Made by a program: the position numbers and the translations under genes. A DNA stretch of 64,000 nt from an uncultured Erysipelotrichaceae bacterium (GTDB lineage: Bacteria; Bacillota_I; Bacilli_A; RF39; UBA660). Each line of letters begins with the position of its first letter. Positions within the stretch are counted from its first letter, which is position 1. The notes under the pieces are model-generated. The model was not told the origin of the DNA, searched no databases, and saw only the letters and a program-made list of their open reading frames with translations. The stretch lies in the NCBI GenBank assembly GCA_902793375.1, contig CADBDE010000007.1:62001-126000 (forward strand), read 5' to 3'. Of the stretch, positions 25,415-34,089 are shown piece after piece.

Positions 25415-27832
25415 TTATTTAACAACAATATTTACAATTTTACCTGGAATTACTATTACTTTAACTATTTCTTTTCCTTCAGTAAATTTTAATACATTTT
25501 CATTTTCCATAGCTTTCTTTTCAGTTTCTTCTTTAGATAAATCTTTAGGTATATTAATTGTTCCTCTTAATTTACCATTTACTTGAACTCCGATAGTTAT
25601 ATCACTATCTTCTAGTTTAGATTCATCATATTTTGGCCATGGTTCATATGCAATTGTATTATTATGTTTGAATATCACATTCCAAATTTCTTCAGTTATA
25701 TGTGGACATAATGGATTTAATAATTTAATAAATCCTTCTGCATACTCTTTTGGGAATACTTCTTCTTTTTGAACAGCATTAACAAATATCATCATTTGAG
25801 AAATAGCTGTATTAATATTCAATGATTCATAATCATTTGTTACCTTCTTAACTGTTTGATGATATATTTTTTCAAGATTTTTATTTTCTTCATCTTTAAT
25901 CTTATTATCTTCACAAAATAAACGATATACTCTATCTAAGAACTTTTTAGAACCTACTACTGCATCATCATTCCATGGTTTATCTGCTCCAAGAGGTCCC
26001 ATAAACATTTCATATAGTCTTAATGTGTCTGCACCGTAATCATTAACAATATCCATTGGATTTACTGCAAATTCAGGATATCTTTTTCCCATTTTAATAC
26101 CATTTGCTCCCAAAATCATTCCTTGATGTACTAACTTTTGAAATGGTTCTTCACATGGAACTAATCCTTTGTCATATAAAAATTCATTCCACATTCTAGA
26201 GTATAATAAATGTCCTACCGCATGCTCTGGTCCTCCAACATAAAGGTCAACTGGCATCCAGTGCTCTAGTAATTTTTTATCTGCAAATTCTTTATCATTA
26301 TGTGGATCAATATACCTTAAGAAGTACCAAGATGATCCAGCACTTCCTGGCATTGTTGAAGTTTCTCTTCTTCCTTTTACTCCATCTACTTCTACATTAA
26401 CCCACTTTTGATCATTTTCAAGTGGAGCTTTTCCATTCTTACTTTTATAATCTTCAAGTTCTGGTAAAACAAGCGGAAGTTCTGAATCAGGAATAGATAT
26501 TGTTTTCCCATTTTCAAGATGTACTACAGGAACAGGTTCTCCCCAATATCTTTGTCTTGCAAATATCCATTCTCTTAAACGATAATTTACTTTCTTTTTT
26601 CCTACACCCATCTTAACTAGTTTATCAGTAATTGCTTTTTTAGCTTCTTCAACTGTTAAACCAGTAAATTCTTCACTATTTATTAATTTACATCCTTTAC
26701 CTAAATAATCTTGTTTTTCAAAAGCACATTTAGATACATCTCTTCCATCAATTACTTGAATCATTGGAATGTTATATTTTTCTGCATATTCAAAGTCTCT
26801 TTGATCATGAGATGGAACTGCCATAACAGCTCCTGTTCCGTAGCTTGCTAAAACAAAATCTCCCAAGAACACCTGAACTTCTTTTCCATTAACTGGGTTA
26901 ATTGCATAAATTCCCTCTAAGGCAATTCCATTTTTATCTTTATTTAATTCTGTTCTATCTATATCGCTTTTCTTTGCAGTTTCTTCTCTATATTTAACTA
27001 CATCATCCCAATTTTTGATTCTATCTTTTAAATCATCAACAAGTGGATTTTCTGGTGCTAAAACCATAAAAGTTATTCCATATATTGTTTCAATACAAGT
27101 TGTATAAATGGAAAACTTTCCTCCACCTTTTATTTGAAATTCTACTTCTACTCCTTCAGATTTACCAATCCAATTTCTTTGTATTTCTTTTGTAGATTCA
27201 GGCCAATCTAATGAGTCAAGATTTTTTAACAATCTTTCTGCAAACTTAGGAATATCAATAACCCATTGTTTCATATTCTTTCTAACAACAGGATATCCAC
27301 CACGTTCACTTTTACCATCAATTACTTCATCATTTGATAATACAGTTCCTAACTCTTCACACCAGTTAACTGGCATATCAATGTATTTAGCATAACCTGA
27401 CTCGAATAATTGTTTAAATATCCACTGTGTCCATTTATAAAACTCTGGATCACTTGTTGCTATTTCTCTATCCCAATCATATGAAAAACCAAGTGATTTC
27501 AATTGGCTTCTAAAAGTCTTAATATTTTTTTCAGTAAAAATTGCAGGATGATTACCTGTTTGAATTGCATATTGCTCTGCAGGAAGTCCAAAAGAGTCAT
27601 ATCCCATTGGATGCAAAACATTATATCCTTGCATTCTTTTCATACGACATACAACATCAGTTGCAGTATACCCTTCAGGATGCCCAGCATGAAGTCCTAC
27701 ACCAGATGGATATGGAAACATATCCAAAGCATAAAACTTAGGTTTATCAAAATCTTTAATATCAGTTTTAAATGTTTTATTTTTATCCCAATATTTTTGC
27801 CATTTCTTTTCTATTTCTTTATAATTATACAT
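25415..27832 (-). CDS. leuS: Leucyl-tRNA synthetase
   Basis: The 805-residue enzyme charges tRNA-Leu. It has the HIGH-equivalent [17 protein letters not shown] near residue 40, the editing (CP1) domain with [20 protein letters not shown], the [13 protein letters not shown] segment and the anticodon-binding C-terminal region. The length is typical of bacterial LeuRS. The KMSKS loop reads KMGKR at residues 580-584, a non-canonical form. The ATG at 27832 overlaps the upstream small membrane gene by 8 bases (ATGTATAA), so expression is coupled to it and to the Leu T-box. Confidence 0.97.
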
Positions 27833-28208
27833 TTTTAACAAGTCCTTTCTTTTTAAAATAATTACCTAAAAACTTTAAACTAATTAAGTAAATTGGTATT
27901 ATACAAACTGACGCAACTACAATCTGTAATACTATATCTGTTTTAAATATTAACACAACTGGTATTGAAATCAGCGCTATATCTATACCTAAAATAAGTC
28001 CAGTGAGTTTTAATAATCCTCTTAAATTTATTTTATCTAAATCAATATTATATTTTTTTATAAAATATTTTACTTCTGATGGTAATCCATCATAATCAGT
28101 TATTCCATCTGCTTTTTTCTTTAAATGTCCATTTTTATCATATCTTAAAACAGAAACGAAAAAATAGATTAAATAAACTAACAAAATAGTAATAAATGTT
28201 TCTATCAT
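27825..28208 (-). CDS. Small membrane protein cotranscribed with leuS
   Basis: No family was recognised. The 127-residue protein has an N-terminal membrane helix (about residues 3-20, [16 protein letters not shown]) and a charged central stretch with [20 protein letters not shown]. Two more helices follow near residues 70-115. The ATG at 28208 is set by GGAGGT 4 bases upstream; the longer frame to 28265 runs into the T-box helices and is not coding. Its stop overlaps the leuS start. Placement between a leucine T-box and leuS means it is induced on leucine starvation, but its job there is not evident. Confidence 0.82.
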
Positions 28209-28432: not shown

Positions 28433-30847
28433 TTATAGATCTTGTATATATTCAAGTATTTTTTTGAATAAATCAATGAATGATTTATCTAAGTTTTGTT
28501 TTTTCAATTTAATAATAAGCATTCTCTTTTCTTTATAAGAATATTCATCATTAAATAATATTTCTGCAATTTTCTCTTTTAATGAAGTTTCTATTTGTAA
28601 ATCAGATAAGATTTCATCTAAATCTTCATTTACAACGTGTACAGCATCTATTTCAATATCTTTTCCTTTACAGTTAATAGTTAATTGTCCTACTGTTGAA
28701 ACATCATTTATTTCTACAATAAAATCATTGTCTTCAACATATTTATTATTTGCATTTATTTGAGTTGAATCAAAGTATACTACTACGTCATCTGAATACT
28801 TTGTATTTCTAAATCTAATCTTATAATTTCTCTTATCTGGAACAATTCCTGTTTTTCCTTCAATAGATCTAATAATCAAAGTATAGTTATTTGGTAAATA
28901 GTTATAATCTATTTCAGTAATTAAATAAAAACCTTCTTTATATAAACTACTAATTCCATCATCTTCATATAATCTATATGTATTATTTTGTCCAGGGAAT
29001 ACATGTATTTCAATATCAGTTGGATTAGAAGTATTATTTATATTACTCTTATTAGATAGTGGGATAATACTTCCTTTCTTAGCAAATATTGGATAATCAT
29101 CTTCCTTATAGAAGGATACATACTTTCTATCTCCATTATATCTTTTTCCAGTAGTAAACTCATACCACACACCTTCTGGTAATAAGAATCTATGAATTGT
29201 TCTATTCATTATTTTATTCTTTTTATCAATAATTGGTGATACAAACAACTCACTTCCAAAGAAATATTCTATTTTATATAAATTATCGTCAATTACTTCA
29301 GGTTTATAATAATAGAATGGTTGGAATATCATAGTTCCTGTCTTATGATATTTATAAGCTTCTGTATATAAATATGAAGTTAATCTATGTCTTAATTTTA
29401 AATATCTACTAACAATGCCTTGAGTTCTAGAATCCCATCTCCATGGTTCTCTTTTATAGTACTTTCCTGGTCCTGCATGGAATCTTAAAATTGGAGAGAA
29501 TACTCCTAATTGAACTGATCTAATATATAGTTCAGGGTCTTCAATACCATCGATAAATCCACCTACATCATGACTCCACCAACAAGCACCAATATTAGAT
29601 GCTGATAAATTAAAGAATGGAGTGGATTTAAAATTAGCCCAGCTTACTTTTGATACCCCAGCATAAGACACTGGATAATTATGTACAGCTTTAAGTGAAT
29701 TTCTTGCAAGAATCATTCCTCTTTTAGCAGGATCTCTTGCTAAATTATTAAACATATAATAATTTAATATCCATAATTTATGATTATTACCATCATAAAA
29801 ATCATTCCAAAAGAAATCTACACCATACTGTTCAAGTGGTTGTAATCCATATTTTAATAAAGCATCTAAGAATTTAGGATTTAATGGATCTATCATTATA
29901 ATTCCTTCTTCTTGATATTCTAAGAATGTTTTAAATTCTTGATAATGAGCTTCATGTGGATATATTCCATCTTTAATATTTGTTTGAAGTCCTACTCTTA
30001 TTCCCTTTTGATGAAGTTCATTAATAAGTGCTTTTGGATCACTTATTAAATTATTATTAAAAGTAAAACCTGTTTCTATATCTTTAGTAGTTTCTGTATT
30101 TGTAATATGCCAACCTTTATCAAATAAAAATACTGATATGGGTATTTCATTTTTTTCAAATTTAGATACTAACTTTTGAACTTCTTCAGTAGTATATGAA
30201 TAATCTCTACACCACCAATTACCAAGTACATATCTTGGAATTAATGCAGGAAGTCCAGTTAACTTAAAATAATCTTGTACAACAAGTCCAAAATCTTTAT
30301 GATACAAAAAAACATATATATCTTTATTACCTTTTATAGGTTCTTCATAACTACCTAATTCATTTATTCTAATGCTTTCACTATCATCAAAAGAAACAAC
30401 ACCATCGATTGAATAAAGGCCTTTATTTTCAGGATTCTCAAATGATTTTTGTTCTGCACTAACATTTGATCCAAAATAGTTTTTAGCTTCTACAATTCCA
30501 TAATACCAAGTGTATCCGGTAGCTTTTAAATCTATTCTTAAGTTCTTTGAAGGATTTAATGGAACTCCTTTAAAGTCACATTCTTTATTATATGATAATT
30601 TAAAATAACTAGTTTCTATTTCTAAATATGATGAATCTTCTCTTTTTGTAAATTTAGGTACATCAAAATTACGAAATGAAACAAGTTCCGTTTTTAAATC
30701 GTTAAATGTAGAAGTTGGACTATATTCAAGTCTTATTAGTCTTTCAGTAAGTACAGTTATTCTATAAGTATTTCCTTGAATTACAGCTTCTTCATTAGAT
30801 TTTAAATTATTCAAGCTAATATGATAATTTTCTCCAAAATCGTACAT
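28433..30847 (-). CDS. Glycoside hydrolase family 31 protein with altered catalytic site
   Basis: The 804-residue protein has the GH31 layout: N-terminal beta domain, then a catalytic barrel with GNWWCRDYSYTTEEVQKLV, VFLFDKGWHI, the nucleophile segment FFWNDFYDG (Asp349), ASNIGACWWSHDVGGF, RFHAGPGKYYKREPWRWD and C-terminal beta domains. Family members cleave alpha-glucosides or alpha-xylosides. The position that normally supplies the acid/base Asp (GFSGDT-type segment) reads SYAGVS, with Val398 in place of Asp. There is no signal peptide, so it is cytoplasmic. A coiled C-terminal extension (about 735-804) is unusual. The ATG at 30847 follows AGGTGA. Confidence 0.92.
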   Translation of the reverse strand: MYDFGENYHISLNNLKSNEEAVIQGNTYRITVLTERLIRLEYSPTSTFNDLKTELVSFRNFDVPKFTKREDSSYLEIETSYFKLSYNKECDFKGVPLNPSKNLRIDLKATGYTWYYGIVEAKNYFGSNVSAEQKSFENPENKGLYSIDGVVSFDDSESIRINELGSYEEPIKGNKDIYVFLYHKDFGLVVQDYFKLTGLPALIPRYVLGNWWCRDYSYTTEEVQKLVSKFEKNEIPISVFLFDKGWHITNTETTKDIETGFTFNNNLISDPKALINELHQKGIRVGLQTNIKDGIYPHEAHYQEFKTFLEYQEEGIIMIDPLNPKFLDALLKYGLQPLEQYGVDFFWNDFYDGNNHKLWILNYYMFNNLARDPAKRGMILARNSLKAVHNYPVSYAGVSKVSWANFKSTPFFNLSASNIGACWWSHDVGGFIDGIEDPELYIRSVQLGVFSPILRFHAGPGKYYKREPWRWDSRTQGIVSRYLKLRHRLTSYLYTEAYKYHKTGTMIFQPFYYYKPEVIDDNLYKIEYFFGSELFVSPIIDKKNKIMNRTIHRFLLPEGVWYEFTTGKRYNGDRKYVSFYKEDDYPIFAKKGSIIPLSNKSNINNTSNPTDIEIHVFPGQNNTYRLYEDDGISSLYKEGFYLITEIDYNYLPNNYTLIIRSIEGKTGIVPDKRNYKIRFRNTKYSDDVVVYFDSTQINANNKYVEDNDFIVEINDVSTVGQLTINCKGKDIEIDAVHVVNEDLDEILSDLQIETSLKEKIAEILFNDEYSYKEKRMLIIKLKKQNLDKSFIDLFKKILEYIQDL

Positions 30848-30948: not shown

Positions 30949-31893
30949 ATGAATTCTTTTAAGTATAGCAATTCAAATAAAAGATATTATACCTTGGACT
31001 ATTATTATAAAAAGAAATATGATACAAAAGTTGCTAAAATAAGTTTAAATCTTGGTCTAACATGTCCAAATAAAGATGGAACTAAAGGCTTTGGAGGATG
31101 TATATATTGTTCTAAACTTGGAAGTGGAGAGTATGGAGGAAATCCAATAGAACCAGTTAAAAAGCAATTTGAAACAATTAAAAAAATAATGACAAAAAAA
31201 TGGCCAAATTGTAAATTCATCGCTTACTTTCAAGCAAATACAAATACATATGGACCTCTTGATTATTTAATAAAGAACTGGGAAGAAGTAATAAAATATA
31301 AAGACGTTGTAGGTATAAACATTTCTACAAGACCAGATTCAATTACAAAAGAATGTTTTAATTATTTAGAAGAATTAAATAAAAAAACAGATTTAGTAAT
31401 AGAATTAGGTCTTCAAACTACTAAGGAAGAAACATCTAAACTTATTAATAGATGTTCTACTCTAAAAGAATTTGAAAGTTGTGTAAAAGAACTTAATAAA
31501 AGAAATATAAAAGTACTTGTTCATATTATTAATGGACTTCCTTATGAAACTAAAGAAGATATGTTAAATACAGTAAAATACATAAATAAATTTAATATAT
31601 GGGGAATAAAAATACATATGTTACATATATTAAAAGATACAAAATTAGAAAACATTTATAAAAATGAAAATTTTCATGTATTAACACGTGAAGAATATGT
31701 TGATATAGTATGTGATCAACTAGAATTATTAAAAGAAGATATTGTAATTAATAGAATAACAGGTGATCCTAAAATAGATGATTTGATTGAACCATTTTGG
31801 TTAACTAAAAAGTTTTGTGTATTAAATGAAATAGATAAAGAAATGAATAAAAGAGACTCTTATCAAGGAAAAAACTTTAAGAATGATTCTTAA
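30949..31893 (+). CDS. Radical SAM protein, TIGR01212 (YtqA/YhcC) family
   Basis: The 314-residue protein opens with YYYKKKYDTKVAKISLNLGL. An unusual radical SAM cluster motif follows: TCPNKDGTKGFGGCIYCSKL, with Cys spacing longer than CX3CX2C, as in the TIGR01212 family. FIAYFQANTNTY and IGISTRPD-like (INISTRPDSIT) segments agree. The family is widespread and has been linked to tRNA or translation-related modification, but no reaction is assigned here. GGTGAT lies 4 bases before the ATG at 30949, and an extended -10 (TGATATAAT, 30921-30929) lies upstream. It is divergent from the GH31 gene. Confidence 0.9.
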   Translation: MNSFKYSNSNKRYYTLDYYYKKKYDTKVAKISLNLGLTCPNKDGTKGFGGCIYCSKLGSGEYGGNPIEPVKKQFETIKKIMTKKWPNCKFIAYFQANTNTYGPLDYLIKNWEEVIKYKDVVGINISTRPDSITKECFNYLEELNKKTDLVIELGLQTTKEETSKLINRCSTLKEFESCVKELNKRNIKVLVHIINGLPYETKEDMLNTVKYINKFNIWGIKIHMLHILKDTKLENIYKNENFHVLTREEYVDIVCDQLELLKEDIVINRITGDPKIDDLIEPFWLTKKFCVLNEIDKEMNKRDSYQGKNFKNDS

Positions 31894-31905
31894 AGTTTTA
31901 TTTTT
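31869..31905. terminator. Terminator between convergent genes
   Basis: A 13-bp perfect stem (31871-31883 with 31887-31899, loop TGA) is followed by T residues on the plus strand. It includes the stop codon of the radical SAM gene. Confidence 0.9.
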
Positions 31906-34027
31906 TATTAATTTGTACTAAGTTAGATAAATAAGTATTATTTTGACTATCTTTTATTCTAAATAAACAATAATAGTCTTTTGAAATATCTAAATCACTA
32001 AATTCTATTTTTATATCATCTTTAGTAGATAAATTAATTGTAGTTATTTCTTCATTATTTTGCCATGTTGGAGTATAATTCCCAAATTCATCCAAAATAT
32101 TATATTTATAACTTAAAAATGTAATATCTTCCCATTCCCCTAAATCAATATCAATTTTAGAATACGTTAAATTCTCATTTAAATCGATTGGGAATACCTT
32201 AGAAATGTATCCATTTGGATGCTCACTATCTACAACAAAATCTAAATAAACTCCAATAACATCTACTTTTAATTCATCTGGATCGAATCTTGAAATTGTT
32301 GCAGGAATAAAATATGTTACATAATCATTTCCTTTTGTAGATTCTATTGCCGTTAAGTACATTTTATTGCCTTTTTTATCTGTTATTGTTAATGATTTTT
32401 TTTCAATAGTAGTAACTAATTTATTTTCATGTATAGATATATCAGTACCATTGAATATTGGTATAAATAACCCATCTGTTGTTTTTTCAAAAATAATATA
32501 ATCAGCTTTACTATAATTATTTATTATTTCTTCATTAAGTGTAATAGCAACATTTCCCTCTCCAAAAGACTCAATTGCACTATTACTTAAATCCCACTCG
32601 GATATTTTACCTCCAACTAGTTTTTGTGAAAAATCATTAACAAAATTATAATAAGAATTAGAAAAAGATAATTCTTTATACTTTAATAAATTATTATTTA
32701 ATTCTTTTTGGTTTTCGTATGGAAAAAATATTGAAATACCATTGGTATTAACTAAATCTGTTTTTTGATATATTACTAAATCAGATAATGCTGTTTTTAA
32801 ATTACTAATTTCATCTTTGTATTTTTCTGGCATTCTATCAAGTAAATCCACCAAATCAACTAAATCATAATAATACTCTTTATTAGCTATTCGTCCATAG
32901 CTTTTAGAATTACTTCTTGTTCTAGATATCTTGGAATAATCAATTATTAAATCACTATCTACTTTTGAAAAAAGAGCATCAATATACTTTAAAACATTAT
33001 CCACTTTATTAAGTTTTAAAAGAGACAAACTAACTCCTTTAACATAATCTTTAGAACTATAATAATCATCATAGTAGTCAATTATTAATTTTCCTAAATC
33101 TTGACTAGCTGTTGTGCTATTTACCTTTTCTAAAAATTTATAATTCCAACCTGATCCAGGCTCAAACTCTTGGCTTGCTACCATATAATCAGCATAATTA
33201 GAAAGAGTTGATGCTATTTCTACACTAGACATTAAACAAGCATCAAATCCAATTAATTCTAATTTATTTTCTCCTATAAATGGGCTCTCATTAAGAGCTG
33301 CTTTAATATCAACGATAGACATTGAATCTAATTTATTATATTCATCATACCCATAACCATATATTGGTCCAGCACCATGATCCCATAGAATTAAATCATA
33401 ATATTCTGTATCAAAGGTCTTATAACCATAATTTAATAAAAATAACAAATTATCTTTATCAAGCATAGTACCAGTATTATCGTATTCTTCTATTTTTTGA
33501 AGTCCATCACTATTTATCTCAAATAATCCATGTTTATCATTTGGTATATCCTCATTATGCCATTTTTTAGAACCACCAGTGTATAAAACAATATTTACAT
33601 CACTATAATCAATTGATGAATCAATCATTTCGTTTATATCTTTAGTACCTGCTAAATATTTGCTTTCTAAGTCTGATCCTATCATATATATCATAACTGT
33701 TCTTTTACCCTTCTTTGAGTAAAAGAAATCATTATTAGCAAATATATAGAATCCTACTATACCTATAATAATGACTAAAAGTGCAGGTATACATATTTTT
33801 ATTATTTTTTTTCTTTTATTATCTTTTTTTTCTTTTTCATAATCTACTTTTAAAAGATCTGTTGTAGGAATTAGTTTTTCCATAGAACTAGAAAACACTT
33901 CTGCTTTTTTTATTTCTTCAACATCAAAAGAAGAAGTATGATTAACCACTTCATGTCCACAATTACCACAATATTTATCTGTTTCTAATATTTCTTGTCC
34001 ACAATTATCACAAACCATATTGTACAT
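31898..34027 (-). CDS. Membrane-anchored clostripain-family (C11) cysteine peptidase with N-terminal zinc ribbon
   Basis: The 709-residue protein starts with a zinc ribbon (CDNCGQEI then CGNCGHEV, residues 6-27). A basic linker and one membrane helix follow (about 78-98, IKICIPALLVIIIGIVGFYI). The extracytoplasmic C11 peptidase domain has RTVMIYMIGSDLESKY, the catalytic His in LILWDHGAG and the catalytic Cys in IGFDACLMSSVEIA. A C-terminal beta-rich region (about 480-709) follows. With zinc ribbon inside and peptidase outside, it looks like a surface-anchored protease. ATG at 34027 is preferred (AAAGG five bases upstream); ATG at 34018 is an alternative. Confidence 0.9.
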   Translation of the reverse strand: MYNMVCDNCGQEILETDKYCGNCGHEVVNHTSSFDVEEIKKAEVFSSSMEKLIPTTDLLKVDYEKEKKDNKRKKIIKICIPALLVIIIGIVGFYIFANNDFFYSKKGKRTVMIYMIGSDLESKYLAGTKDINEMIDSSIDYSDVNIVLYTGGSKKWHNEDIPNDKHGLFEINSDGLQKIEEYDNTGTMLDKDNLLFLLNYGYKTFDTEYYDLILWDHGAGPIYGYGYDEYNKLDSMSIVDIKAALNESPFIGENKLELIGFDACLMSSVEIASTLSNYADYMVASQEFEPGSGWNYKFLEKVNSTTASQDLGKLIIDYYDDYYSSKDYVKGVSLSLLKLNKVDNVLKYIDALFSKVDSDLIIDYSKISRTRSNSKSYGRIANKEYYYDLVDLVDLLDRMPEKYKDEISNLKTALSDLVIYQKTDLVNTNGISIFFPYENQKELNNNLLKYKELSFSNSYYNFVNDFSQKLVGGKISEWDLSNSAIESFGEGNVAITLNEEIINNYSKADYIIFEKTTDGLFIPIFNGTDISIHENKLVTTIEKKSLTITDKKGNKMYLTAIESTKGNDYVTYFIPATISRFDPDELKVDVIGVYLDFVVDSEHPNGYISKVFPIDLNENLTYSKIDIDLGEWEDITFLSYKYNILDEFGNYTPTWQNNEEITTINLSTKDDIKIEFSDLDISKDYYCLFRIKDSQNNTYLSNLVQINKK

Positions 34028-34065
34028 TCCTACCTTTACATTATAATACCATATTTTAACAATCA

Positions 34066-34089
34066 AAAAAAGAGAAATAATCTCTTTTA
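34066..34089 (-). terminator. Intrinsic terminator after the six-helix membrane gene
   Basis: AAAAGAGA and TCTCTTTTT pair around a five-base loop, with a T run on the minus strand. Confidence 0.8.

Follow-up and report, generated by a model that had tools for sequence, protein, structure and literature searches.

A GH31-derived protein lacking the acid/base aspartate across an order of genome-reduced bacteria

The GH31-like gene and its product

The stretch of DNA analyzed here (the window) comprises 64,000 nucleotides of contig CADBDE010000007.1 (assembly GCA_902793375.1, positions 62,001 to 126,000 of the forward strand) from an uncultured Erysipelotrichaceae bacterium placed by GTDB in the order RF39, family UBA660. 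It carries a gene for a GH31-like protein of 804 residues, followed on the same strand by the genes for a small membrane-like protein and leucyl-tRNA synthetase and preceded by a divergent gene for a tRNA-modification protein (Table 1). The barrel and C-terminal domain profiles of Pfam (PF01055, 164 bits, E 5.8e-48, and PF21365, 54 bits, both above the cut-off) place the 804-residue protein in the GH31 fold and sequence family, and a DUF5110 domain is also present. The gene is the only place in the window's 1.59-Mb genome that matches the GH31 barrel family.

Table 1. Features of the window. Residue numbers are those of the GH31-like protein; counts out of 118 refer to the clade alignment described in the text.
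Feature	Position	Strand	Basis and remarks
GH31-like protein, 804 aa	28433..30847	(-)	ORF from ATG, Pfam, alignment to LlGH31_u1
Barrel (about residues 185-506), proximal C-domain (about 507-590), then distal C-domain and C-terminal region			limits transferred by LlGH31_u1 alignment
Asp243 codon	30119..30121	(-)	subsite -1 (CtGII Asp443); kept in window, not Asp in 52/118 (one is a gap)
Asp349 codon GAT	29801..29803	(-)	retained nucleophile position (LlGH31_u1 Asp341)
Val398 codon GTA	29654..29656	(-)	acid/base position (LlGH31_u1 Asp394)
Asp427 codon	29567..29569	(-)	subsite -1 (CtGII Asp662); kept in window and in 112/118
His457 codon	29477..29479	(-)	subsite -1 (CtGII His691); kept in window, lost in 72/118
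Small membrane-like protein, 127 aa, directly downstream	27825..28208	(-)	no Pfam match
Leucyl-tRNA synthetase gene (leuS)	25415..27841	(-)	Pfam; downstream in 49/61 loci
tRNA-modification radical SAM protein MnmL/YtqA, divergent	30949..31893	(+)	NCBIfam TIGR01212, 334 bits; upstream in 25/57 loci
Clostripain-family (C11) peptidase domain after zinc ribbon	31898..34066	(-)	

By far the best solved relative of the window protein is LlGH31_u1 from Lactococcus lactis (PDB 7wj9, E 6.3e-108), which aligns over residues 20-645; the next GH31 protein follows only at 1.2e-37, and the GH31_u1 alpha-1,3-glucosidases are thus its closest sequence relatives. PDB 7wjc, which holds the LlGH31_u1 sequence with Ala at the acid/base site, gives E 2e-108. 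According to the structural report, LlGH31_u1 is an alpha-1,3-glucosidase in which Asp341 is assumed to be the nucleophile and Asp394 the acid/base, the D394A variant is referred to as an inactive mutant, and the enzyme forms a hexamer to which the C-terminal helices contribute (PMC9061262). An AlphaFold2 model obtained with the window protein and one homologue as input reached a pLDDT of 34.3, too poor for a comparison with the C-terminal four-helix domain and hexamer of the GH31_u1 alpha-1,3-glucosidases. A C-terminal stretch of about 65 residues is present in the window protein and well conserved among its homologues in the order.

Loss of the acid/base aspartate

The preliminary description of this DNA proposed a GH31 protein that has its nucleophile, Asp349, and carries Val398 where the acid/base Asp is expected, and it suggested an alignment with characterized GH31 structures as a check. 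Its numbering and coordinates fit, and such an alignment, with LlGH31_u1 (7wj9), bears out both assignments: Asp349 is paired with the nucleophile Asp341 and Val398 stands opposite the acid/base Asp394, the window segment YAGVSKVSW running gap-free along FSGDSVISW of LlGH31_u1. Hence, of the two carboxylates of GH31 retaining hydrolases, the nucleophile Asp on beta-4 is present in the window protein and the acid/base Asp on beta-6 is replaced by Val.

To place this replacement among related proteins, 118 homologues (E up to 0.001) from the window's order were taken as the clade set. They were chosen across genera, with a bias towards better-scoring matches; duplicates were discarded, as was one homologue interrupted by an internal stop (L113). 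The outgroup consists of 25 GH31 proteins, 20 of which are GH31_u1-like. Residues 389-427 align without a gap in all 118 clade rows and all 20 GH31_u1-like rows, and Gly397, adjoining the acid/base site, is invariant in both sets. The misplacement of the residue by eye, which the preliminary description had allowed for, is therefore excluded. The same ungapped alignment, and the agreement across many separate genomes, leave a negligible chance that misalignment or a sequencing artefact conceals a true acid/base residue elsewhere. Nor is Val398 an oddity of one species, since Asp is missing from this column in 116 of the 118 clade rows.

Asp occupies the acid/base column in 25 of 25 outgroup rows, compared with two of 118 in the clade (and none in a smaller count of 102 clade rows). 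The clade rows carry Lys (46), Glu (25), Ser (15), Arg (8), Gln (7), Asn (6), His (4), Tyr (2), Asp (2), Val (1), Ile (1), and Pro (1). Val is thus found in the window alone. Among the other 10 rows of the window's genus, nine have the codon GAA (Glu) and one AAT (Asn) at this position, and the window codon GTA is one base away from GAA. In a FastTree tree of the 118 clade rows and the 20 GH31_u1-like rows, calculated without the five remoter GH31 proteins of the outgroup, the clade is set apart by a branch with support 100. The two Asp rows (L139 and L142) are close relatives nested inside the clade, and both lack Asp243 and His457; on these grounds, their Asp may represent a return to the ancestral residue.

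Distribution and genomic context

Homologues were detected (E up to 0.001) in 62 of 97 relatives and, in the order as a whole, in 338 of 385 genomes and 108 of 117 genera, all of the genomes listed belonging to one family. Genomes in the order measure about 0.6-1.9 Mb, and RF39/UBA660 bacteria are described as genome-reduced in three reports (PMC6784871, PMC13155120, PMC12306168). Of 117 sampled genomes, 105 have a GH31 match, and in 103 of these, the gene (or its pieces) is the sole GH31 place; the second place is below the cut-off in one of the other two (G027) and a fragment in the other (G118). The gene is not indispensable, because 12 of the 117 genomes are without a match and several of these are 93-95% complete.

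The usual neighbors of the clade GH31 gene are housekeeping genes, not sugar genes. The order GH31 gene, small membrane-like protein, leuS recurs in 48 of 61 loci. Pyruvate kinase was considered as a constant partner and rejected, as it precedes the GH31 gene in just 19 of 57 loci. The outgroup differs in this respect: none of the clade neighbor markers was found by tblastn (E 1e-3) at 10 outgroup GH31_u1-like loci of 11.5-15.5 kb, and 10 neighbor proteins scanned from eight of these loci divide into five sugar-related ones, each from a different locus (GH3 twice, a GH35-like protein, glycogen phosphorylase, and an MFS sugar transporter), and five that are not sugar-related. Other enzymes of alpha-glucan metabolism are rare in the order, GH13 being found in 13 of the 117 sampled genomes and glycogen phosphorylase in none of them (the GH13 and glycogen phosphorylase searches were positive in 13 and 12 of 14 control genomes, respectively).

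The small membrane-like protein is clade-specific within the sample, with a match in 18 of the 19 clade genomes listed and in one of 140 others, where the match is weak and has internal stops. It is present in 100 of the 105 genomes with the GH31 gene; its persistence in nine of the 12 genomes without a GH31 match weakens its candidacy as an obligate GH31 partner. Among eight members scanned, one shows a weak resemblance to YajC (E 0.00035). In two genomes without a GH31 match (L180 and L181), MnmL, the small protein, and leuS lie side by side, leaving an empty site, and a third locus from such a genome ends before the gene order can be told. Genomes without the GH31 gene appear to nest among those with it in the leuS tree (one row) and the MnmL tree (two rows), with weak support in trees of which that of leuS does not hold the outgroup together. 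As a separate observation, the window leuS is 75% identical to that of L181, 47-48% identical to those of L176 and L177 (same family), and 56% identical to that of L183 from an outgroup family, and two kinds of leuS may circulate in the order.

Decay of the active-site pocket

Six canonical residues were followed through the clade: Asp349, the acid/base position, Asp243, Arg382, Asp427, and His457. The nucleophile is kept in 110 of the 118 rows, Asp427 in 112, Arg382 in 99, Asp243 in 66, and His457 in 46, and in no row are all six found together. The five residues other than the acid/base are intact in 44 rows, including the window, and within these 44, residue 398 is Ser (14), Glu (11), Lys (10), Arg (3), Asn (2), or Val, His, Ile, or Pro (one each). 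Of the sugar-contact residues of LlGH31_u1, His280, which contacts the 6-OH, is kept in none of the 118 rows, and Gln343 and His427 are kept in two rows each; the Gln343 column sits in a shortened loop and was scored as a gap in another alignment. The window protein has Asn290 for His280, Tyr351 for Gln343, and Phe431 for His427, and the position of Phe391 is changed as well. The 20 GH31_u1-like rows share 55 invariant columns, and 20 of these columns are retained in 90% or more of the clade.

On the tree, the acid/base column has undergone 31 changes within the clade, which puts it at the 61st percentile of 791 columns (median 25). The nucleophile column has changed eight times and the Asp427 column four times, both fewer than most columns, with His457 and Asp243 at 18 and 19 changes. 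The acid/base position thus changes about as freely as a typical column. The nucleophile and Asp427 are still constrained, and this constraint is the chief argument against a pocket that is entirely idle. Column entropies were compared between 16 outgroup rows and 100 random clade samples of equal size. The mean entropy of ten published active-site columns is 0.0 in the outgroup and 1.22 in the clade samples; that of 84 other outgroup-conserved barrel columns likewise rises, from 0.08 to 0.80. With all clade rows included, the mean is 1.43 bits for the active-site columns versus 0.97 for the other outgroup-conserved barrel columns (permutation p 0.058). Decay at the active site therefore exceeds that of other once-conserved barrel positions by a modest margin.

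One member outside the 118 rows, L176, keeps a single one of the six residues (Arg382). Its reading frame (L176:1957-5574, plus strand) has a 427-codon in-frame extension ahead of the GH31 part (403 codons from the first Met), which consists of 19% Asn and 10% Gln and is poor in Lys and Arg.

The preliminary description had offered two outcomes for a protein of this kind, an altered mechanism (transferase, lyase-like, or substrate-assisted) or loss of activity. For hydrolase activity, a loss is favored indirectly by the 12 residue types at the acid/base site, the repeated loss of other sugar contacts, and the shift of constraint to the C-terminal domains discussed below. A new mechanism common to the clade finds no support, because no replacement residue is shared and the pocket residues differ between members. 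Judged by its residues, the subgroup of 44 rows that keeps the nucleophile and the other checked -1 residues could nevertheless work by an altered mechanism.

Such proteins, at least in the window's genus and in members with an otherwise intact -1 site, might still be enzymes that use Asp349 on activated donors needing no acid catalysis (glycosyl phosphates, fluorides, or nucleotide sugars), or act as transferases or lyases. The retention of the nucleophile and Asp427, and of all five residues in the 44 rows, speaks for this possibility. However, residue 398 varies even within these rows, the 6-OH contact His280 is replaced in 118 of 118 rows and the +1 residues Gln343 and His427 in 116 each, and the common neighbors are not sugar genes; we consider continued catalysis of this kind unlikely. 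The same 44 rows would also be compatible with a sugar sensor or lectin, in which sugar binding in the pocket, with no cleavage, would be signaled by way of the C-terminal domains. Loss of His457 in 72 rows and the lack of Asp at position 243 in 52, with as many changes on the tree as given above, argue against it; glucose binding of the LlGH31_u1 type is therefore unlikely as a clade-wide function, and a role in sugar sensing appears distinctly improbable.

Purifying selection and the shift of conservation

Among the 14 closest pairs, dN/dS (Nei-Gojobori) ranges from 0.025 to 0.125; the dS values of 0.38-1.58 are partly near saturation. Clade-wide loss of a catalytic residue in a protein under continued purifying selection, as seen here, is one feature expected of a GH-derived pseudoenzyme. 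The mean column entropies of the outgroup and the clade samples are 1.84 and 1.51 for the N-domain, 1.19 and 1.37 for the barrel, 1.70 and 1.00 for the proximal C-domain, 2.03 and 1.05 for the distal C-domain, 2.61 and 1.35 for the linker region, and 2.49 and 1.16 for the C-terminal helices. Sequences in the clade samples resemble one another more closely overall (mean identity 0.52 versus 0.41 in the outgroup), so the lower entropy outside the barrel is partly expected; a less conserved barrel is not. Moreover, 41 columns reach at least 93% conservation in the clade and no more than 30% in the outgroup; 34 of these lie after residue 460. The C-terminal domains are now the most conserved part of the protein in the clade.

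These data bear on the suggestion that the gene is a functionless, decaying remnant of a lost pathway. Decay of the pocket, the 12 of 117 genomes without a match, the two loci where the neighbors stand side by side with the GH31 gene missing, and one homologue with an internal stop (G316) would all be consistent with such a remnant. Against this stand the low dN/dS values, the presence of a homologue in 338 of 385 genomes of an order with reduced genomes, and the 41 columns conserved in the clade and not in the outgroup, which together make it very improbable.

A probable scaffold derived from a glucosidase

Collectively, the sequence data suggest that the protein is probably a GH31-derived pseudoenzyme, kept as a non-hydrolytic and perhaps oligomeric or protein-binding scaffold. 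An ancestor close to the GH31_u1 alpha-1,3-glucosidases would have lost the acid/base Asp early in the order, either in a single event, followed by a return to Asp in one small group, or repeatedly. The acid/base and several sugar-contact positions would then have drifted, with purifying selection continuing to act on the folded protein. We infer that glycoside hydrolysis is most likely gone and that the GH31 body may be kept for folding, assembly, or contacts. The C-terminal domains probably carry the scaffold role, whether by oligomerization, as in the LlGH31_u1 hexamer, or by protein binding; this reading is suggested by the use of C-terminal helices in that hexamer and by the conservation of the C-terminal domains in the clade.

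Several observations count against a pseudoenzyme. The nucleophile and Asp427 are kept more often than expected of a wholly abandoned pocket, and the other five checked residues remain together in 44 rows, the window among them. In 25 rows, the acid/base site is occupied by Glu, which could in principle act as an acid. The excess of active-site decay over that of other conserved barrel columns is modest (see the permutation value above).

Glycosidase folds reused without catalysis are known from 4F2hc/rBAT, Klotho, and the chitinase-like lectins, which are animal proteins and belong to other GH families. One report mentions 4F2hc-type proteins without catalytic residues and, closer to the present case, sandfly GH31 proteins that lack them, namely NET37 clade IV and a lysosomal alpha-glucosidase-like protein; GH31 proteins predicted to be inactive include a sandfly protein with its proton donor replaced by proline (PMC8063059). 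The insect proteins are paralogues that exist beside GH31 copies with catalytic residues, whereas the bacterial gene is the sole GH31 in nearly all sampled genomes that have one. No bacterial pseudo-GH31 case was found in the open-access literature that was searched.

A broader reading, which we put forward tentatively and with more doubt than confidence, is that the GH31 glucosidase of these genome-reduced bacteria, usually the only one they have, became a structural protein throughout the order. Catalysis would have been lost early and the pocket left to drift, the C-terminal domains would form the conserved working surface of the scaffold, and one lineage would have added a long Asn/Gln-rich tail. 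The genomes of these bacteria measure about 0.6-1.9 Mb and rarely encode other alpha-glucan enzymes, yet they have kept an 800-residue former glucosidase. Annotation based on family membership would assign them an alpha-glucosidase that they probably lack. The clade offers more than 100 natural variants, some retaining parts of the active site that others lack, in which to study how a fold is reused after the loss of catalysis.
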